In this document: positions 1 to 8,350 of the stretch, in pieces | Layout of the letters: each line of letters begins with the position of its first letter | Position numbering within the stretch: the stretch's first letter is position 1 | Source: a virus | Virus record (IMG/VR): IMGVR_UViG_3300005095_000047 | Location: 1 to 21,210 of that record | Direction: 5' to 3' (one strand) | Length of the DNA: 21,210 bases | Notes under the pieces: generated by a model | The model's input: the letters and a program-made list of their open reading frames with translations, nothing else | Database searches by the model: none | Told to the model about the DNA's origin: nothing | Program-made: the position numbers and the translations under genes

Positions 1-876
1 ATAATTATCAAATAGTTTAACCTCTTGGGAATATTTGATATTATTAGATTCTAGAAATTCTCTAATTTTCCGTTCACCTTTTGATTCGGAATTTTCTTGA
101 GCGCATTTTGGACATTCACAATTCATATTACTATGGGTATTTGGAGTTTGCCAAAAACTCCCATGTTCAGGACATATTATTTCTATTTTTTTCATACTAT
201 GTAAATATTGAACTTTACTGTAATCGTATTTATTACCATGAACTTTTTTAAAATTATTAATAGCTTCATACTGAGTTAATAACCGATTTTGAATATTACA
301 TTTTGGACAACCAGATCCTTTTATGTGGTATTTTGGAGCTTGTAAAAATTCCCCATGTTTTGGACATATTATAGTTATCTTAGAATTAAGATTTTTATAA
401 TGTACTTTCGAATAATCATATCTATCGCTATGAACTTCTTTAAACTTTTTTATAACTTCTTTCTGAGTAAATTGATTTCGGCCAGCGCAAATGGGACAAC
501 CAATTTTTCGTAAATGGTCATTCGGTAATTGAAAAAAACTTCCGTGCTTTGGACATACTATTTCTACTTTAGTCATAGTATTTATATATTGAACTTTACT
601 ATAATCGTATTTATCTCCATGAATTTTTTTAAACTCGGTTATAACATTTTCCAAAGATTTTTTTAAAATTTTTTTAATCTTATTAATTCCACATTTAGGA
701 CAACCGGCTCCATTTTTATGTCCATTTGGGGTTTGTAAAAACTCTCCATGTTCTGGACAAATAATAATAACTTTAGTATTATTATTTTTATAATTTACTT
801 TTGAATAATCGTATTTATCTCCATGAACATTTTGAAAATCTTTTATGGTTTCTTCCGACGTTTTTCGTCTAGCCAT
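1..876 (-). CDS. Homing-endonuclease-like protein, zinc-repeat plus VSR-type nuclease (partial, runs off left edge)
   Basis: The frame is open from ATG at 876 to the left edge (292 residues seen); the C-terminus is missing. It carries four copies of a roughly 60-residue repeat with the pattern VHGDKYDYSKVxY, then a hydrophobic strand, a Cys and an HG(E/S)F motif, then a His and a closing CPxC pair, so each repeat could bind zinc. After the fourth repeat comes GERKIREFLESNNIKYSQE, the beginning of the same nuclease domain found complete in the gene at 3635-4558. The start follows the nrdB stop by eight bases, and its AGGAAA ribosome binding site overlaps that stop (TAGGAAAAAATATG). By family precedent this is probably a mobile endonuclease targeting the adjacent nrdB; that is inference. 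The catalytic part lies outside the window, so activity cannot be judged. Confidence 0.8.
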   Translation of the reverse strand, partial: MARRKTSEETIKDFQNVHGDKYDYSKVNYKNNNTKVIIICPEHGEFLQTPNGHKNGAGCPKCGINKIKKILKKSLENVITEFKKIHGDKYDYSKVQYINTMTKVEIVCPKHGSFFQLPNDHLRKIGCPICAGRNQFTQKEVIKKFKEVHSDRYDYSKVHYKNLNSKITIICPKHGEFLQAPKYHIKGSGCPKCNIQNRLLTQYEAINNFKKVHGNKYDYSKVQYLHSMKKIEIICPEHGSFWQTPNTHSNMNCECPKCAQENSESKGERKIREFLESNNIKYSQEVKLFDNY

Positions 877-884
877 ATTTTTTC

Positions 885-2123
885 CTATTTTGATATTAGA
901 GATTCTCTAATATTTTTTCTAGTCTGGGTATTTATAGTTTCGTCTTTAATTGGGTCACTGACATAGTCCACTGCTTCCGACTCTTGTAAAGATGTTTCGA
1001 CACTATGGAGATTAATATATTTATTACTCCATTTAATTGGATTAGTTTTTACTTCTGGATTAATAGGTTTAAAACCTATTGCTAAAAGTCTTTGATTTAC
1101 AAGATACTTCGTATATTGTTTACTAATCTCCGCATTCATTCCAGGAAGATTTCCTTTTGAGAATAAATGATCTGCCCACTCAAATGATTCTTCTTGAGCT
1201 TCGAAATATGCGTCATATATCCAAGGTTTTAATCTTTGAACTACTTTTTCAAAAAGAACATGTTTCTTTAAAGAATTAAATAAGTACTGAGTAAGAGCTA
1301 AATGCTGTTTTTCATCTCTTTGAATAAATTGGAGAATTCTTGAACTACCAGCCATCTTCCCACAGAATTCAGTAATACTCCAAATAGCCATAAAACCAGG
1401 GTAGAAATGAATTCCTTCTAGAATATTCATACTAATAATAGCCTTAATAATATCTTCCAGAAGTTCTTCAAACTCTTCATCTAAAATATCAATATTATTT
1501 TTAGTTTTATAAAGATATGTAATAATACTGTCGTATAATTTATTTGGTTCGCGTACTGTTGTAGCAGCTGCTTTAAGAAGAACCTCATTATCCCAAATAT
1601 TATTAAAAATGATATCTGGATCGGTATATAAATTCTCAACCATATAACTATAACTTCTTGAATGTATTCTACTTTCTTGAAATTCTTGTTCAAGAAGCAC
1701 TGCCTCAAATTCTGGATTAGTAGTTAATTGGCCAAATGTTAATAATGGACTACGTCCCTGTAAAGAATCTAAGAATACTAATCTAGATAATTGTTCCGAA
1801 TAAACAAAGTCTTCTACTTCGGTAAAGGTTTCTTTATCTAATTTATCTTTTTGCAATTTAATTTCTTCTGGAAACCACATTTGTCTTTGAATAGTCATTG
1901 CCATATTACTTAAGAAATTAAAATTATTTTTATCATATCTTTGTGTATTTCTAGCTTGTCCAAAAAAAAGTGGCTCAGCTACAGTATCTACTTTTTCTAA
2001 AGTATATATATCGTATTTAGTTTTCTTTTCTTCAATAAAAGCGCAATCATCCAGAATTAATAATTCCGGTCGTTCCCCTCTAGGATAATTTTTTAAATCT
2101 TTCTCTAAAGAATGGTTATGCAT
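885..2123 (-). CDS. nrdB: Ribonucleoside-diphosphate reductase small subunit (class I, NrdB)
   Basis: 412 residues. The protein should house the metal/radical cofactor that activates NrdA for reduction of ribonucleotides. Visible landmarks, with E. coli R2 equivalents, are EPLFFGQ near 50, FLDSLQGRSP with D119 (D84), IHSRSY with H154 and radical Tyr Y158 (H118, Y122), ILEGIHFY with E236 (E204), and RDEKQHL with E271 and H274 (E238, H241). The Glu ligand equivalent to E115 is E150, but it sits four rather than three residues before H154, a one-residue insertion in the ligand helix. The N-terminus is about 35 residues longer than in E. coli, and the C-terminal tail ends RESLISK. The ATG overlaps the stop of the upstream P-loop gene by eight bases (ATGCATAA), suggesting translational coupling. 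It belongs to the same transcription unit as nrdA, separated by four small genes. Confidence 0.95.
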   Translation of the reverse strand: MHNHSLEKDLKNYPRGERPELLILDDCAFIEEKKTKYDIYTLEKVDTVAEPLFFGQARNTQRYDKNNFNFLSNMAMTIQRQMWFPEEIKLQKDKLDKETFTEVEDFVYSEQLSRLVFLDSLQGRSPLLTFGQLTTNPEFEAVLLEQEFQESRIHSRSYSYMVENLYTDPDIIFNNIWDNEVLLKAAATTVREPNKLYDSIITYLYKTKNNIDILDEEFEELLEDIIKAIISMNILEGIHFYPGFMAIWSITEFCGKMAGSSRILQFIQRDEKQHLALTQYLFNSLKKHVLFEKVVQRLKPWIYDAYFEAQEESFEWADHLFSKGNLPGMNAEISKQYTKYLVNQRLLAIGFKPINPEVKTNPIKWSNKYINLHSVETSLQESEAVDYVSDPIKDETINTQTRKNIRESLISK

Positions 2124-2490
2124 GATATTCCTTATGTTTTAATTTATCTATTAATTTAGTACTTGAGTATCCAAGAACGTTTATATTATTTTTAATACAA
2201 TATTTAATTAAATATTTAAATATTTTTTTATTCATGAATGCAAATTCATCCAGAAATATTTTATTTGGTTTTTTAAATTTTAGAATTTTTTTAAGTTCTT
2301 TTTTTGTACTTGGTAATACAGAAACCAAAGATTTTGTTTTTCCATAAACCGTTCTGGCAATATTAGGTGTAATTACGAATAAAACATTATCGTTTGGGTA
2401 TTTTTCTTTATTCGCTTTTTTAATTAATTTTGTGGTTTTTCCACTTTGTCTATCCCGATATTTTAAATCTATTTTTATTTTAGATTTCAT
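2116..2490 (-). CDS. Small P-loop NTPase-like protein
   Basis: 124 residues, strongly basic. A Walker A-like motif, RDRQSGKTT, lies at residues 12-20 and a Walker B-like strand, KIFLDEF, at 77-83 (D81, E82). Between them is a hydrophobic strand, VLFVITPN. Near the C-terminus a strand followed by polar residues (NVLGYSSTK) could act as a sensor. This is about the smallest arrangement that could fold as a P-loop NTPase core. The RQxGKTT form of Walker A is reminiscent of phage terminase/helicase-type ATPases, but no such domain is complete here. It overlaps the nrdB start by eight bases and has an AAAGGA site before its ATG. Its function is unknown; it could be a remnant of a larger ATPase or a small nucleotide-binding accessory to the nucleotide-metabolism operon. 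Confidence 0.6.
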   Translation of the reverse strand: MKSKIKIDLKYRDRQSGKTTKLIKKANKEKYPNDNVLFVITPNIARTVYGKTKSLVSVLPSTKKELKKILKFKKPNKIFLDEFAFMNKKIFKYLIKYCIKNNINVLGYSSTKLIDKLKHKEYHA

Positions 2491-2505
2491 AGTAATCCTT
2501 TTAAT

Positions 2506-2817
2506 TTAATTATCTTTTATATTCTTCCAAAAATCTATAGCTTTCAATACTTTATTAATTCTAACTGTATCTCTATCTAAGTAATGAACATTTAATAATT
2601 TTTTTAAATGTTCATCTAATTTTTGAATTCTGTATTCTATAAATTCATCTGGGATATATTCTATATCTTTTGTGCCATAAAGATATTCGGTCTTCGATAA
2701 AGAATTATTTTGTAGAACCTCTTCTGCTTTTTTAGTATTGATCATTGTTGGTTCTTCAAAAATATATTTATCTTTTTTGTCATTAAATAAATCATTTTCG
2801 GTTATATAATGGGCCAA
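2506..2817 (-). CDS. Hypothetical protein with TTG start
   Basis: 103 residues, no family recognised. The product is charged and probably helical in its C-terminal half (IEYRIQKLDEHLKKLLNVHYLDRDTVRINKVLKAIDFWKNIKDN in outline), with no signal peptide or membrane segment. The start is called at TTG (2817) because AAAGGA lies about six bases upstream, directly over the end of the protease gene, and because the frame has no earlier start. The first in-frame ATG is 24 codons further in and lacks such a site. It sits between the ClpP-like gene and the P-loop gene with only three bases separating it from the former, so it is surely cotranscribed. Confidence 0.6.
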   Translation of the reverse strand: MAHYITENDLFNDKKDKYIFEEPTMINTKKAEEVLQNNSLSKTEYLYGTKDIEYIPDEFIEYRIQKLDEHLKKLLNVHYLDRDTVRINKVLKAIDFWKNIKDN

Positions 2818-2820
2818 ATT

Positions 2821-3600
2821 TTATCCTTTAAAATAAGTATTTTGTTTTTCATAATACTTCTTAAGTTTTTTAATACCTTTTTTATTATTATAAATTTTTC
2901 CATCTATAATAATTCCAGTACAGATTCCTCGTTTTAACATATCTTCTGAATCTAACCAAAAATCTTTTCCACGATTCAACCGCTTCCATTCTTTTTTAGT
3001 AAAATATTTTTGAGCAATTCCTAAAAATTTATCTAAATGTTTTTTAGAAAATTTAACTCTATTTATCATATCTGACATTTTTCCAGAAGCCCCACCTGAA
3101 CTATGATGAAACATAATTCTCGAATTTGGATAAATATATCTATTTTTTAAAGATATAAATGTAAATGCCCCAGCACTAGAAGCATGCGAAGTAATAGTAA
3201 TACTAATTTTATTTAATCTATTTTCTTTTTCAAAAGCTCTTTCCAAATCCTGTAAAGTATTAATGAATTGTTGACATTCTGTAACATATCCCCCATTACT
3301 AGATACATGTATTTTTACTGTATCTAAAGAAGGGTTAACCATTCTCAATTCATCTAATATTTTATAAAGAGTTGGTTCATCATTTAAAAAATTATCTAAA
3401 TTTAATAAAAATAATTTTGGGTGAAGATACTTATTTTTCTTTTTATCAATAAGAATTGGTTCTTGTGGTTCTACCGTTAAATGATGCTTTTTAGCAGATA
3501 TATTATATAATTTACCTTTATGTTCTTTTTTAACTTCCGGAGATTTTTTAATTTCGGTTGGTTTATTTTGTGGTTTGCTTTGTGTATTTTTCTTTTTCAT
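2821..3600 (-). CDS. ClpP-fold (S14-like) serine protease
   Basis: 259 residues. After a Lys-rich, probably disordered first 30 residues there is a ClpP/crotonase-like core. Residues 97-104 (HVSSNGGY region) resemble the oxyanion loop of ClpP. HASSAGAF at 139-146 gives nucleophile S142, RIMFHHSSGG at 161-170 gives H165, and KDFWLDSEDMLKRGI gives D213, in the order and approximate spacing of the ClpP triad. All three catalytic residues are therefore present. Phages use ClpP-fold proteases as head-maturation enzymes or for unknown regulatory proteolysis; no Clp ATPase-docking evidence can be seen here. Its position inside the RNR operon, far from the structural genes, does not settle the role. 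The start ATG has AAAGGA eight bases upstream. Confidence 0.82.
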   Translation of the reverse strand: MKKKNTQSKPQNKPTEIKKSPEVKKEHKGKLYNISAKKHHLTVEPQEPILIDKKKNKYLHPKLFLLNLDNFLNDEPTLYKILDELRMVNPSLDTVKIHVSSNGGYVTECQQFINTLQDLERAFEKENRLNKISITITSHASSAGAFTFISLKNRYIYPNSRIMFHHSSGGASGKMSDMINRVKFSKKHLDKFLGIAQKYFTKKEWKRLNRGKDFWLDSEDMLKRGICTGIIIDGKIYNNKKGIKKLKKYYEKQNTYFKG

Positions 3601-3634
3601 ATTTTTCCTTTAAATTTATAATTTTAAGGATGTA

Positions 3635-4558
3635 CTATAATGTACATCCACCACCAGAACACTCCTCATTATCAGAAATAACCTCGAGAACTTCTTCAAC
3701 GTCTTCAAAATATCCTATTCGAATTATTCTTATATTATTCTCTAAACAATACTCTGTTTTAATTTTATCCCGTTGAGTCTTTAAGAATCCTTCTAAACCA
3801 CCAAAATAATCTACTGGTTCGAAATGTTGTTTTCCATCGTACTCGATAACAGTATTTAAATCTTCTAGATAAAAATCAAATGGCAATTCTTTTTTAAATT
3901 TACAATCCTTAAAACGATATTCCTGAAAATATTTAATATTATTTTCTTCTAAAAAAATTCGAATGCGTTTTTCTCCAATAGATTCTAAGCATTTTGGACA
4001 ACCAGAACCATTAGAATGAGTATTTGGTCTTTGAAAAAAACTCCCATGTTCTGGACATCTTATTTCTACTTTAGTCATAGAATTAATATAATTAACTTTT
4101 GAATAATCGTATTTATCACCATGAACTTTTTTAAATTTTATCAATGATTCTTTTGTATTCAAATTAGAATTTTTTCTTGCACAGAATGGACAACCTTGCC
4201 CATTCTTATGTTGTATGGGAGTTTGAAAAAAACTCCCATGTTTAGTGCATATTATTTCTACTTTAGTATTTGCTTTTATATAATTAATTTTACTATAGTC
4301 GTATTTATCAGAATGAACTTTTTTAAATTCATCGATAATTTCATTATTGTTTCTAATTCTGTATTTATTGCATTTTGGACACCCGGAACCTTTCCAATGC
4401 TCAGAGGGAAGTTGAAAAAAACTTCCATGTTTAGAACATAATATTTCTACTTTGGTAGTAGTATTTAAGTACCGAACTTTACTATAATCATATTTATTTC
4501 CATGAACTTCTTTAAATCTTTTTATAACTTCTTCTTGGGTTAATTTTTTACCCATCAT
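3635..4558 (-). CDS. VSR-type homing-endonuclease-like protein ending in a duplicated NrdA tail
   Basis: 307 residues from ATGATG at 4558. Three zinc-type repeats lie at about 12-63, 75-126 and 138-190, each with VHxxKYDYSK, C-x2-HGSFFQ, a His and a closing CPxC. A nuclease domain follows at about 194-292: GEKRIR (E196), PFDFYL (D228), IEYDGKQHF (E239, D241, H245) and QRDKIKTEYC (D263). This matches the Glu-Asp-x-His-Asp pattern of VSR-fold homing nucleases such as I-Bth0305I. After the final helix (EDVEEVLE) the protein ends VISDNEECSGGGCTL, nearly the NrdA C-terminus. The ATG overlaps the nrdA stop (ATGATGG contains TGA), and the Gly codons of the nrdA tail (GGTGGTGGA) can serve as its ribosome binding site. 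An ATG upstream within nrdA (4582) is less likely as the start. A mobile endonuclease targeting nrdA is the best reading. Confidence 0.85.
   Translation of the reverse strand: MMGKKLTQEEVIKRFKEVHGNKYDYSKVRYLNTTTKVEILCSKHGSFFQLPSEHWKGSGCPKCNKYRIRNNNEIIDEFKKVHSDKYDYSKINYIKANTKVEIICTKHGSFFQTPIQHKNGQGCPFCARKNSNLNTKESLIKFKKVHGDKYDYSKVNYINSMTKVEIRCPEHGSFFQRPNTHSNGSGCPKCLESIGEKRIRIFLEENNIKYFQEYRFKDCKFKKELPFDFYLEDLNTVIEYDGKQHFEPVDYFGGLEGFLKTQRDKIKTEYCLENNIRIIRIGYFEDVEEVLEVISDNEECSGGGCTL
3642..3661 (-). repeat. Direct repeat copy 2 (distal NrdA-tail copy, end of nuclease gene)
   Basis: On the minus strand this reads TGTTCTGGTGGTGGATGTAC, identical to 4562-4581 and 920 bases from it. It encodes the CSGGGC of the nuclease C-terminus. 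Similarity continues upstream, with about 40 of 48 coding bases shared. The pair flanks the nuclease gene, so recombination between the copies would delete it and leave one nrdA tail. Confidence 0.9.
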
Positions 4559-7089
4559 AAAGTACATCCACCACCAGAACAACCTTCGTCGTCAGAATTA
4601 ACCTCTTGTAGTTCCTCCAAATCATTGTCTGTTTTAGTTTTAGCATAATACAATGTTTTAATTCCAAATAGCTCCGTAAATAAATCTCTTCTAATTACTT
4701 CTGATTTTGGAATTTTAGAATCTGGGTATTTTGTAAAATCAACATATTCATTAATACTGATGGCTTGATCTATAAATTTTTGCATAATAGCGATAAGTTT
4801 CCAGTACTCAATCATATCCAAATTCCATGCAGAATTATATTCATAAAAAGAATCGTATTCTTTTGAATTAGGAAGAATAGCTGTAATTTTCATATTGTTA
4901 TCTTCAATACTGTATTCTGTACCTTGTGGAGGGTTAATACCTGAGATCATGTTCCCAGGTCTACTTGAATTTGAACTAGGAACTGCTGTAAGTAAAGTAC
5001 TATTTCTTAAACCATATTTTTGAATATCTTTTCTAAGAAGTTCCCACATACTTATAGAAATACTTTTTTCTTCACCATCTTCAAATTTGACAACATCTTT
5101 TAAATCATATAGTTTATCTACATTCTTTTCATAAGTATCTATTGGTAAAATACCTTTCGAGTATTTAGTATCCGCGAAATAATTACAAGCGCCTTTTTCT
5201 TTAGCTACTTCGTTACTAGCTTTTAAACCATAGTATAAAAATTCTTCAAATACCATAGCAGTTAATGCTCTAGCTTCTTTAGTATCATAATTAAAACCAT
5301 GTTTAGCTAACATATAAAAATAATTTCCTGGACTGATACCAAGGGCTCTTCTATTCTTAGTAAATTTTTCAAATGGTTTTATATCTTGATAATCCTGTTT
5401 ATCGATCATTTCATCCAAGAAGTATACCATTAAGAACATATTTTTTTCCAATTGTTTTTTACGTTCCTCTGTATCAGTACTTAAGTTTCCAAAGTTAATT
5501 CCTCCAAGAATACATGAAAATATTTCTCCAAAATTAAGAATATATTTTTCTTGAAATTGTTCGGATCCTTCTTTAGAACTTAAAAAACTTAAATGCATAT
5601 CTACTACCCATGAATTTTTTTCATCGATAATACCATATCTAATAAATCTATATAATTGATACCATTTACCATCTTTATAAAGACCTTCGATAAATAATTC
5701 ATAATCATGAGAATCATTTACATAAAAAATATAATCTTCATCTGGAAAACTTGGTAATGCTATTTCCGTACATAAATTTGAAGTATATACTGGTAAATCA
5801 AATGCACTGTGTTCTTGCATATGTCTAGCATTTACTTTATAATTTCTAGCAGTGATATATCTTTCATGAAAGTATCTATCTTCTAAAGAAGACGCTTTGA
5901 TTACTTTTCTAAATATTTTTCCTTCTTCGGCTAGTTTCTCGTATTTAAGATACTCTGCTTCAAATTCTGGGGTACCAATAAGACTATATAATTCCCCAAC
6001 ATCATTCATATAAAATAAAGAGATATCTTCTTCATTATCTAAACGTTTTCTAAATAATGGATCAAATACTATAGCATGATCGGAATGTCTGACGGAAGCT
6101 TCGTCTGAACCTTTGTTATTTTTAAGTTGTAAAATATCTTCTATCTCAATATGGAAAAAAGGATAATAATTTGTAATTGCTCCAGAACGACCAGAATTTG
6201 GTTGAGTACTACTTCTAGAAATTGCCTCGTTAGCTTTTGCATAAGGAGTTATACCAGTATGTATTTCAAAACCATTTCCAATATCTGCTCCAAGTCCTCT
6301 AATATTTCCTATATTTGCTCCAATACCTGCTCGAAGTTTAGTAATTAATTTATATAAAGATTTACTTCCATTTGCTATAGCTTCGATACTATCCCCAAAG
6401 TCAAGACCGGAACATGAAGTCCAACCTTTCATATTAGTACGGATACCAACCATTCCAGGAGTAGGTAAAAATATATCAAATACTGCTAACGCATGATAAA
6501 ATTCTCTTACCATTATTGCGCGGAAGTCTTTATCTTTGATATCGGAGAAGATATATAATGGAATTAAAAAGAATATTTCTTGAGGAGTTTCAATAGGTTT
6601 CCCATCTCTTTTAATGCTGTATTTTTTAATAAGTTGATTTAATCCTAAATAAGTAAATCTTAAATCATTATTATAATCAATGCATTTTGCTAATTCATTT
6701 ATTTCATCGTCGGAATAATAAAAGAATATTTCTTTATCATAATATCCTTTTCCAGCTCTTTCTCTTAGTAAAGCCGCGTCAAATGCTGGAGTATACCCAC
6801 CATAAATATCTTTATATAAATCTTGTAACATAAGTCTCGCAGGAGGATATTGAGAATCTGGATTATTTTTATCAATCATATCTGCCGCCGTAAAAATAGC
6901 AGCTTTTTGAATTTCTTCCGATTTCATTTCTTGTTTTAAACGTATTTTAAAATTACTAAAAATTTCAAATGGATCTACATTTAAATCTTTACAGGCATAT
7001 TTAAAATGCTTAAGTATTTTTTCAGAATTAAATGGTTCGATTCGTCTGATCCCATTTTTTTCTCTTTTTATTACGGTATAATTTTCCAT
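4555..7089 (-). CDS. nrdA: Ribonucleoside-diphosphate reductase large subunit (class I, NrdA)
   Basis: 844 residues. This is the catalytic subunit that reduces ribonucleoside diphosphates. The N-terminal 95 residues look like an ATP-cone (YTVIKREKNGIRRIEPF onward). Catalytic residues are in place: C226 in TSCSGLDFGDS, N438/C440/E442 in SNLCTEIALP, C526 in GEIFSCILGG, Y814/Y815 in KTLYYAK, and the C-terminal thiol pair C837/C842 in CSGGGCTL. E. coli NrdA has 761 residues. Most of the extra length is an insert of about 63 residues between C440 and C526 (23 residues apart in E. coli, 86 here). The insert shows no intein junction motifs. The start has AAGGAAAAAT upstream. The stop overlaps the nuclease gene start. 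An RNR partner is encoded at 885-2123. Confidence 0.96.
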   Translation of the reverse strand: MENYTVIKREKNGIRRIEPFNSEKILKHFKYACKDLNVDPFEIFSNFKIRLKQEMKSEEIQKAAIFTAADMIDKNNPDSQYPPARLMLQDLYKDIYGGYTPAFDAALLRERAGKGYYDKEIFFYYSDDEINELAKCIDYNNDLRFTYLGLNQLIKKYSIKRDGKPIETPQEIFFLIPLYIFSDIKDKDFRAIMVREFYHALAVFDIFLPTPGMVGIRTNMKGWTSCSGLDFGDSIEAIANGSKSLYKLITKLRAGIGANIGNIRGLGADIGNGFEIHTGITPYAKANEAISRSSTQPNSGRSGAITNYYPFFHIEIEDILQLKNNKGSDEASVRHSDHAIVFDPLFRKRLDNEEDISLFYMNDVGELYSLIGTPEFEAEYLKYEKLAEEGKIFRKVIKASSLEDRYFHERYITARNYKVNARHMQEHSAFDLPVYTSNLCTEIALPSFPDEDYIFYVNDSHDYELFIEGLYKDGKWYQLYRFIRYGIIDEKNSWVVDMHLSFLSSKEGSEQFQEKYILNFGEIFSCILGGINFGNLSTDTEERKKQLEKNMFLMVYFLDEMIDKQDYQDIKPFEKFTKNRRALGISPGNYFYMLAKHGFNYDTKEARALTAMVFEEFLYYGLKASNEVAKEKGACNYFADTKYSKGILPIDTYEKNVDKLYDLKDVVKFEDGEEKSISISMWELLRKDIQKYGLRNSTLLTAVPSSNSSRPGNMISGINPPQGTEYSIEDNNMKITAILPNSKEYDSFYEYNSAWNLDMIEYWKLIAIMQKFIDQAISINEYVDFTKYPDSKIPKSEVIRRDLFTELFGIKTLYYAKTKTDNDLEELQEVNSDDEGCSGGGCTL
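4562..4581 (-). repeat. Direct repeat copy 1 (NrdA tail proper)
   Basis: Minus strand TGTTCTGGTGGTGGATGTAC, the last codons of nrdA encoding the redox-active Cys pair. It is an exact copy of 3642-3661. The base following the repeat and the stop codon differ between the copies (ACTTTATGA here, ACATTATAG there), so the duplication has diverged slightly and is not an assembly echo. Confidence 0.9.
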
Positions 7090-7164
7090 ATTTTTCCTTC
7101 GATTAAAAACTGTTTTATTTATTGTATTGAAATATATCTATAAAATCTATATGACGTACTCTAG

Positions 7165-7590
7165 CTATTTTAAAGTAATTTCCGTTAATGGATCTATTTC
7201 AAAATCCTTTTTATTTTTATGTAATTCGGAATTTTTTACAAAAATTCTATTATTAATACACAATGCTTTTTGTATATGTTTTATTTCTTCGCCTGTATTT
7301 TTTACAATAAAAGTTTTTGTTTTATAAGGATTATAATAAATTTCAATATTATAATCTAAATAATCATTTATCGTTTCATCTAATAATTTATAATCTTCCG
7401 ATACTAAAACAGCATGAACATTTTTTCTTTTTTCGCGTATAACTCTTTCCCTACCTTTTTGAGATACTTTAAATTCTACGTTAATCAATAAAACTTTTTT
7501 TGGCCTTTGTATTACCAATCCTCTATTTTTAATACTAAATGAATCATTATGTAAATTTCTATAAGTATAATATTTTGCTAGAATTGCCAT
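7165..7590 (-). CDS. Conserved phage protein of unknown function
   Basis: 141 residues, basic, no membrane segment. The first half (YYTYRNLHNDSFSIKNRGLVI, then FKVSQKGRERVIREKRKNVHA) resembles, as I recall it, a small protein conserved across unrelated phages with the pattern RNLHxxxxSI...GRxRVxxxKRKNVHA. No biochemical role is known to me. It is the first gene of the left operon, behind a plausible promoter at 7608-7637 and an AAAGGAAAT ribosome binding site, and 75 bases upstream of nrdA. The second half (residues 70-141) alternates strands and charged turns and is not recognised. Confidence 0.7.
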   Translation of the reverse strand: MAILAKYYTYRNLHNDSFSIKNRGLVIQRPKKVLLINVEFKVSQKGRERVIREKRKNVHAVLVSEDYKLLDETINDYLDYNIEIYYNPYKTKTFIVKNTGEEIKHIQKALCINNRIFVKNSELHKNKKDFEIDPLTEITLK

Positions 7591-7607
7591 TTTATTTCCT
7601 TTATTAA

Positions 7608-7637
7608 ATTATAATTGTTTAACATATCTGTATTCAA
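7608..7637 (-). promoter_or_regulatory. Possible sigma70-type promoter for the left (RNR) operon
   Basis: On the minus strand TTGAAT (7637-7632) is followed after 18 bases by TATAAT (7613-7608), with the first gene starting 18 bases beyond. It lies just downstream of the palindromes at 7645-7690, where a regulator bound there could affect it. In such AT-rich DNA the match could be chance. Confidence 0.4.
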
Positions 7638-7644
7638 TATTACA

Positions 7645-7690
7645 AGTTAACTATTAATAGTTAACTATTGATACTACGTGGTATCAATAG
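7645..7690. promoter_or_regulatory. Two adjoining palindromes, possible operator
   Basis: 7645-7666 is a perfect 22-base palindrome made of two AGTTAACTAT-type arms. It shares two bases with 7665-7690, a 26-base palindrome with arms CTATTGATAC / GTATCAATAG around a TACGTG centre. They lie immediately upstream of the proposed promoter at 7608-7637. The first contains the same ATAGTTAACTAT core (7657-7668) that occurs in the 42-base repeats. Confidence 0.55.
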
Positions 7691-7736
7691 TAAATATAGT
7701 TATCTATATACGTTTGTCTTTTTAGTTGATGGTATG

Positions 7737-7778
7737 AATAGTTAACTATTCATAGTGTGTGTACTGATAGTTAACTAT
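7737..7778. repeat. 42-base intergenic repeat, copy A (paired ATAGTTAACTAT palindromes)
   Basis: Two perfect 12-base palindromes ATAGTTAACTAT (7738-7749 and 7767-7778) start 29 bases apart and flank a non-palindromic centre TCATAGTGTGTGTAC. The block matches 21092-21133 in 40 of 42 bases. The first palindrome extends to 22 bases (TATGAATAGTTAACTATTCATA, 7733-7754 in outline). Both copies lie between a terminator and the first gene of an operon, so a regulatory role (operator or promoter for a phage factor) is likely but unproven. Confidence 0.75.
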
Positions 7779-7806
7779 AGATAAAAACTAGAGTATTTTA
7801 TGTTGG

Positions 7807-7859
7807 TTAGTTCGTTTAAAGACAGGAAATTAACTTAGAGAATATTCTCTAAGTTAATT
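7807..7859 (-). terminator. Terminator hairpin with CTGTC trailer
   Basis: 7828-7859 is a perfect 32-base palindrome (arms AATTAACTTAGAGAAT / ATTCTCTAAGTTAATT) eight bases past the stop of the gene at 7868. On the minus strand it continues TTTCCTGTCTTTAAACGAACTAA. The same trailer follows the hairpins at 10067-10096 and 11816-11847, and in shorter form 21165-21186. Confidence 0.75.
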
Positions 7860-7867
7860 AAACTATT

Positions 7868-8350
7868 TTAAAATCTTCCTGGTTTGCGGTTACTTTTTCT
7901 AATAACTCTTTCCGGAGTAGTTTCTATTTTTGGAGAAGTTGCTCTAAAAATAGCATCTTTTGTACTAGATATTATATTATCTTTAGTATCTTTTATTTTA
8001 GACGATATCTTTTCAACTGTATTTTTATTACCTACCCAATTCCCAGTTCCATTTTGAAAATCATTTTTTCTTTGAAATCCAACAGAACTTGCTTTATTTT
8101 TAGATAATGCTTTCGTTTGTTGATTAATAGTATTTGCATGTTCTCTATTAGAATACCCATTATTATCTATTTTTGAAGGATTTTTAAGAAGTTCCGTTCG
8201 TTCGGACCGTTTTGTTTTTATAGCAGTTGCTATACTTTTTCTAGCCGGGTTTAAACTTTTTAAAGCACTTTTTACCCGACCTTTAAGAGACTCCTCCAAC
8301 ATTTCGACAGCTTCTTCTACTAACATATTTTTATTTATTTCTAATATCAT
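7868..8350 (-). CDS. Basic hypothetical protein, possible virion-internal protein
   Basis: 160 residues, not recognised. The N-terminus is a short acidic amphipathic helix (MILEINKNMLVEEAVEMLEE). The rest is Lys/Arg/Ser-rich and low in hydrophobic residues, with a basic tail (ERVIRKSNRKPGRF), so it may bind DNA or be disordered. An acidic leader followed by a basic body resembles phage head-packaged proteins. L10-V11-E12 and L18-E19-E20 would fit a T4-type LxE cleavage rule, but that is inference. It is the last gene before the terminator at 7828-7859. AAGGAA precedes its ATG. Confidence 0.65.
   Translation of the reverse strand: MILEINKNMLVEEAVEMLEESLKGRVKSALKSLNPARKSIATAIKTKRSERTELLKNPSKIDNNGYSNREHANTINQQTKALSKNKASSVGFQRKNDFQNGTGNWVGNKNTVEKISSKIKDTKDNIISSTKDAIFRATSPKIETTPERVIRKSNRKPGRF

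Follow-up and report, generated by a model that had tools for sequence, protein, structure and literature searches.

The nrdA locus

The window, i.e. the whole stretch of viral DNA that was analyzed, comprises 21,210 nucleotides (positions 1 to 21,210 of IMG/VR record IMGVR_UViG_3300005095_000047); a virus record of 24,457 bases contains it. The following features, listed from high to low coordinates, were found in its first 7,089 positions.

4555..7089, minus strand: nrdA, encoding the large subunit of a class Ia ribonucleotide reductase (RNR); an open reading frame of 844 aa, complete with its C-terminal Cys tail
4558..4605, minus strand: tail copy 1, the last 16 NrdA codons (EVNSDDEGCSGGGCTL), continuous with native nrdA upstream
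3635..4558, minus strand: nuclease gene, 307 aa, its ATG overlapping the nrdA stop
3983..4558, minus strand: about three zinc-finger repeats of the nuclease, treble-clef or CapR-type, presumed to bind DNA (Pfam DUF4379, 7.4e-11)
3686..3982, minus strand: Vsr-like catalytic domain of the PD-(D/E)XK type; the common core of the nuclease ends here with ..YFEDVEEVL
3635..3685, minus strand: tail copy 2 (EVISDNEECSGGGCTL followed by TAG), continuing the nuclease reading frame
3601..3634, minus strand: native nrdA-clpP intergenic DNA, joined to tail 2 and matching L046 downstream of its single nrdA tail
2821..3600, minus strand: gene of a ClpP-like protease, the native right neighbour (Pfam CLP_protease, 3.4e-10)
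885-2123, minus strand: nrdB
1-876, minus strand: second nuclease, of the same family as the one adjoining nrdA; it begins immediately after nrdB and is truncated where the contig ends

The nrdA product matches Pfam Ribonuc_red_lgC (6e-81) and its gene ends with TGA (4555-4557). The nuclease ATG (4558-4556) overlaps this stop as ATGA, with a second ATG directly after it. The nuclease is a separate open reading frame adjoining a conserved essential gene, outside any intron or intein. A group I intron was ruled out, as no Rfam family reached its gathering score in window positions 1-8000, and no intein was seen in the 844-aa NrdA product.

A preliminary description, made from the sequence alone, had proposed that nrdA with a complete tail is followed by the nuclease and then by a second tail in the nuclease frame, and that the nuclease start overlaps the nrdA stop; both points were borne out. 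The last 16 residues of the nuclease (EVISDNEECSGGGCTL) and of NrdA (EVNSDDEGCSGGGCTL) are identical at 13 positions, and the underlying DNA at 40 of 48 bases including 20 identical nucleotides in a row (TGTTCTGGTGGTGGATGTAC), just as described. The local alignment score of this repeat (58) was reached in none of 1000 shuffles under a dinucleotide model (maximum 24) and in none of 200 mononucleotide shuffles (maximum 27), by which chance similarity of the tails is ruled out.

A perfect 8-bp inverted repeat (GGATGTAC/GTACATCC, 6-base loop; window 3628-3649) spans the stop codon of tail 2. L045 and L046 share it at their native 3′ ends; it is absent at tail 1 and in L047.

The nuclease

The window nuclease belongs with PHROG 559 (‘HNH endonuclease’, 7.5e-79) and shows DUF4379/DUF723-type zinc-finger matches in Pfam. 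Invariant Cys and His columns of the zinc-finger repeats recur in the alignment of the relatives, and their fold recurs in the AlphaFold model, which was calculated with 21 relatives and has a mean pLDDT of 84. The C-terminal half of the model resembles E. coli Vsr (Foldseek; 1vsr and 1cw0; probability 1.00, TM by target 0.55 and 0.50, E only 0.03). The earlier label ‘VSR-type’ is therefore apt with respect to the predicted fold, though a search of solved structures with the nuclease sequence gave no match. F-D-F, E-x-D-G and a His are invariant in the alignment of the relatives and are candidates for catalytic residues. Residues 297-307, the last 11 and all within the tail, have a pLDDT <50 and are unstructured in the model. 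One position of the alignment (KTQ-RDKIKT) is occupied in 20 of 20 relatives but is a gap in the window nuclease, and with this residue missing the copy may be damaged or inactive.

Occupied and empty nrdA alleles

For this clade no more than four nrdA contigs were found, of which the window and L045 hold the nuclease and L046 and L047 are empty; a wider scan for nrdA alleles returned only those contigs and one remote relative. L045 (IMGVR_UViG_3300028534_000021), a close relative from IMG/VR, has the layout of the window with two tails identical at 62 of 62 bases, so the tail repeat is not an accident of a single assembly. In both empty alleles a single tail is followed by clpP as the next gene. 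Upstream of window tail 1 lies an ordinary nrdA body, and downstream of window tail 2 the sequence continues as TAGTACATCCTTAAAATTATAA..clpP, as it does in L046 after its only tail. The native flank of tail 1 is therefore the left one and that of tail 2 the right one.

Window tail 1 is identical to tail 1 of L045 at 45 of 48 bases, and to the empty alleles and window tail 2 at 40-41 of 48. Between the window and L045, identity amounts to 93.1% in nrdA, 98.0% in the nuclease core, 85.4% (41/48) in tail 2 and 88.6% in the downstream DNA (intergenic region plus clpP). The drop falls exactly at the junction of core and tail 2 (Fisher test, core versus downstream p = 1e-15, core versus tail 2 p = 1e-4), and the junctions themselves differ, reading ..VEEVL|EVISD in the window versus ..VEE|ELQEVISD in L045. 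A core at 98.0% identity next to a less similar tail 2 and downstream region is the pattern that would be expected of a nuclease that has moved. A clpP-nrdB stretch is also 99-100% identical between the two contigs; the clade is recombining, and high identity is not unique to the nuclease.

Most simply, these alignments are read as reflecting a common recent history of the nuclease and the flank upstream of it, tail 1 included; window tail 2 would be the recipient’s own nrdA end. The identical tails of L045 we read as probably due either to later gene conversion or to recent local duplication. Comparison with relatives lacking the nuclease, which had been suggested as the means of telling which tail is native, hence yields a well-argued answer for the window and an ambiguous one for L045, where the tails are identical.

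In the empty allele of L047 (3952-7842), NrdA is apparently interrupted by an intein of ~450 residues that follows NMKGWTSC, and nrdA of this clade has thus been hit by two kinds of mobile element.

A common end point of the nuclease core

When close relatives of the nuclease located at different sites were compared, similarity of both DNA and protein ended at one point, ..YFE(D/E)VEE(V/I)L. What follows is site-specific, namely KGLI behind nrdB, KPLITGSRELV and NELTINS before the terminase gene, and the NrdA tail at the locus studied here. Judged from these alignments, the nuclease core is without a stop codon of its own and has its end supplied by local downstream sequence, the NrdA-like tail being one case of this rule.

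Family members at nrdB and at a neck gene are intergenic, and none of those tested at these two genes showed a tail copy. The nucleases at the nrdB site of L045, L046 and L008 end with ..EILKGLI or ..KILKGLI, likewise without a copy of the NrdB tail.

Flanking repeats at the site between the HU and terminase genes (L014, L018) were not counted, as repeats are already present in that intergenic region. Repeated palindromes of the TTAACTATTAATAGTTAAC type fill it (L007 4640-4925, L010 3150-3405, L014 6740-7010), and it is the site of several nucleases. Tandem nuclease genes with nearly identical C-terminal halves occur in L006 (6001-7783), L007 (4917-6915) and L014 (6934-9216), the second gene beginning where the first ends or close by. 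A repeat in L074 concerns another gene on the opposite strand.

The same layout in two other host genes

The host gene of site B encodes an exonuclease fragment of a family B DNA polymerase that ends with KLNKEIHFEV. In L177 the nuclease at this site ends with ..REKLNKEIHFEV, and the two tails differ by five synonymous and no other codons. In L175 the nuclease ends with ..VLNKEAYFKV and the second tail has decayed; the related nuclease of L176 shows no clear tail, and the allele of L178 is empty. The host gene of site C encodes a SWIM-finger protein ending with LKYLIQTGR. Here the nuclease of L186 reads into LKYLIRTRR, followed by a frameshift, while in L189 the nuclease stop is closely followed by an exact 18-base tail copy; the alleles of L187 and L188 are empty. 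The tail repeats of L175, L177, L186 and L189 were matched by 0 to 4 of 1000 shuffles. An endonuclease reading frame between two copies of a host C-terminal end is accordingly present in the window, L045, L175, L177 and L186, and in L189 with the copy behind the nuclease stop.

When the tail pairs were pooled, 11 synonymous and 7 non-synonymous codon differences were counted, whereas random changes would be synonymous in ~19% of cases (p = 1e-4). This synonymous excess shows that both copies descend from tails selected as host protein.

A fourth gene (L012/L193), a polymerase fragment with a nuclease ending ..LVKVT, is only suggestive of a further tail case; the nuclease is followed by native downstream sequence, and the repeat by itself is weak, being matched by 41 of 1000 shuffles.

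The nucleases of L175, L176 and L177 have a site-specific N-terminal region in common, and the C-terminal end of that in L175 is of another type, likely reflecting a domain swap of the catalytic half. The DNA polymerase is apparently split in L142 (reverse strand) and L030 (4905-5987), with the exonuclease-domain fragment downstream of a reading frame with a DTDS motif like that of polymerases; a further polymerase piece is matched by L012 4643-5983.

Origin of the tail-nuclease-tail arrangement

Free-standing phage homing endonucleases are usually thought to be confined to intergenic DNA unless hidden by an intron or intein. The element found here consists of a tail copy and a stop-less nuclease core, and resides inside the 3′ coding end of at least three genes for which empty alleles exist. 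In our view it probably represents a free-standing homing-type endonuclease, composed of zinc-finger repeats and a Vsr-like domain, that inserted within the nrdA 3′ coding end together with a replacement C-terminus. The preliminary description had inferred just such an invasion, with the original tail left fused to the nuclease; this is supported and fits the two empty alleles, the contexts of both flanks, the jump in divergence at the junction of nuclease and tail 2, and the recurrence at two further genes. Tail 1 is accordingly read as the putative donor or replacement tail and tail 2 as a presumptive scar consisting of the native nrdA 3′ end.

A possible course of events is as follows. The nuclease would cut nrdA alleles that lack it, the candidate cut region of empty 3′ ends being near GAAGAACTYCAAGAAG. 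Repair would copy the nuclease and the donor’s upstream flank from an occupied genome, whereby the recipient’s NrdA would be completed by the donor-derived tail. The native tail of the recipient and the sequence downstream of it would stay behind the nuclease and provide its C-terminus and stop, fusion perhaps taking place at short common words (GAAGAA at nrdA, TTAAA at sites B and C). Translation of the nuclease might be coupled to nrdA termination through ATGA. Tail 2 would later decay or occasionally be overwritten by tail 1, and recombination between the two tails could remove the nuclease cleanly.

An alternative in which nothing was carried in, both tails stemming from the same genome by local tandem duplication or template switching as the nuclease landed beside nrdA, appears rather improbable to us. 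The identical 62 bases in L045 and a junction within GAAGAA, which is common to nuclease and nrdA, are in line with it, and such a duplication could be the origin of the first insertion. However, the two window tails disagree at 8 of 48 bases, and tail 2 resembles the empty alleles at least as much as it does tail 1, whereas window tail 1 matches that of L045 at 45 of 48 next to a core that is 98% identical. The exclusively synonymous differences in L177 are also better explained by two separately selected alleles. We see hardly any chance that an ordinary intergenic insertion behind nrdA later captured a tail-like sequence fortuitously, or that the repeat is an assembly artefact. Family members do occupy intergenic positions at nrdB and the neck gene, but the repeat surpasses every shuffle, is present in a second contig and recurs in layout at two other genes with empty alleles, so that L045, L177 and L186 contradict this explanation; moreover, diverged repeats are not assembly duplications.

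It had also been proposed that a benefit to the nuclease is the reason why the tail was retained, for instance docking in the NrdA active site or competition with the swinging redox arm. In line with this, the window and L045 alike have CSGGGCTL and both cysteines unaltered, and at the nrdA, polymerase-fragment and SWIM-gene sites the tail is read in the same frame as that of the host. Recency or gene conversion, however, explains the intact cysteines, and the last 11 residues of the window nuclease are those modelled with a pLDDT <50. In close relatives the end point of the core is the same irrespective of what follows, and there are relatives without any NrdA-like tail or with unrelated host tails. 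At other sites the second tail is an unrelated peptide; it has decayed in L175, is frameshifted in L186, lies untranslated behind the nuclease stop in L189 and is absent from L176. The tail was accordingly rejected as a conserved nuclease domain. Since the second tails differ by site and range from exact copies to decayed, frameshifted or untranslated ones, they are taken as insertion scars and not as a kept domain, and in our view the redox tail does not serve the nuclease. The proposal thus finds no support; docking of the nuclease tail at RNR is unlikely, and a functional role of the fused tail in general is very improbable.

With regard to the insertion of an endonuclease carrying a replacement C-terminus, the tail-nuclease-tail layout looks like a means of entering coding DNA that leaves the host gene unbroken: because the nuclease brings a spare C-terminus, coding DNA of essential genes can be occupied. 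The two flanking tail copies would also permit clean loss of the nuclease by recombination. Since the C-terminus of the host gene would then come from another phage, such elements would be a route for shuffling protein ends. More tentatively, these intron-less phage elements might be natural cleave-and-rescue drives, in which the nuclease would cut a conserved 3′ coding end and the synonymously recoded C-terminus carried along would restore the host protein and resist cutting.

Relation to known systems

The homing endonuclease I-Bth0305I is akin to Vsr. Of the EDxHD type, it resembles the present nuclease in belonging to a phage class with a restriction-enzyme-like active site, but is intron-encoded (PMC3943268), as opposed to the present nuclease gene, at which no intron was found. 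Phage homing endonucleases with DUF723, DUF4379 or CapR zinc fingers likewise have tandem DNA-binding repeats and lie near RNR, terminase and polymerase genes; their zinc fingers are combined with T5orf172 (GIY-YIG) instead of a Vsr-like domain, and tail replacement is not described in the sections of that article drawn upon here (PMC10448857).

In phage T4 the start of mobE, encoding the free-standing endonuclease MobE, overlaps the nrdA stop (UAAUGA), and nrdA of phage Aeh1 is split by an endonuclease into two polypeptides (PMC2988022). Both resemble the present case in having an endonuclease gene at nrdA and in the targeting of essential replication genes. They differ in that the endonucleases are of the HNH type, mobE is intergenic and the Aeh1 NrdA is split; a duplicated tail is not described in the portions of this source on which we rely (PMC2988022).

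Closest in layout are the mobile reading frames with C-terminal replacement in fungal mitochondria, i.e. in Allomyces atp6 and in Glomus atp6, atp9, cox2 and nad3 (PMC3630166). The comparison drawn in the preliminary description holds, the order being the same: an endonuclease reading frame behind the host gene, with the inserted C-terminus in front and the native C-terminus behind it, empty alleles in relatives and largely synonymous tail differences (PMC3630166). The fungal endonucleases are LAGLIDADG or GIY-YIG enzymes and mitochondrial, and the native tail is often untranslated (PMC3630166), whereas the Vsr-like zinc-finger nuclease of the phage uses it as its own C-terminus and stop. No example of tail replacement by an endonuclease in phages was found in the literature searched, which lay mostly outside subscription journals. 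Homing endonucleases carrying a C-terminus are thus already known, and on the best reading of the present sequences what appears new is their occurrence in phages and with a Vsr-like zinc-finger nuclease.

Ten loci from cultured phages were fetched, and the eight that were tested showed no tail copy. Among these cultured phages, all without an example of tail replacement, Lactococcus phage WRP3 has the same nuclease family right behind the gene of the RNR large subunit.
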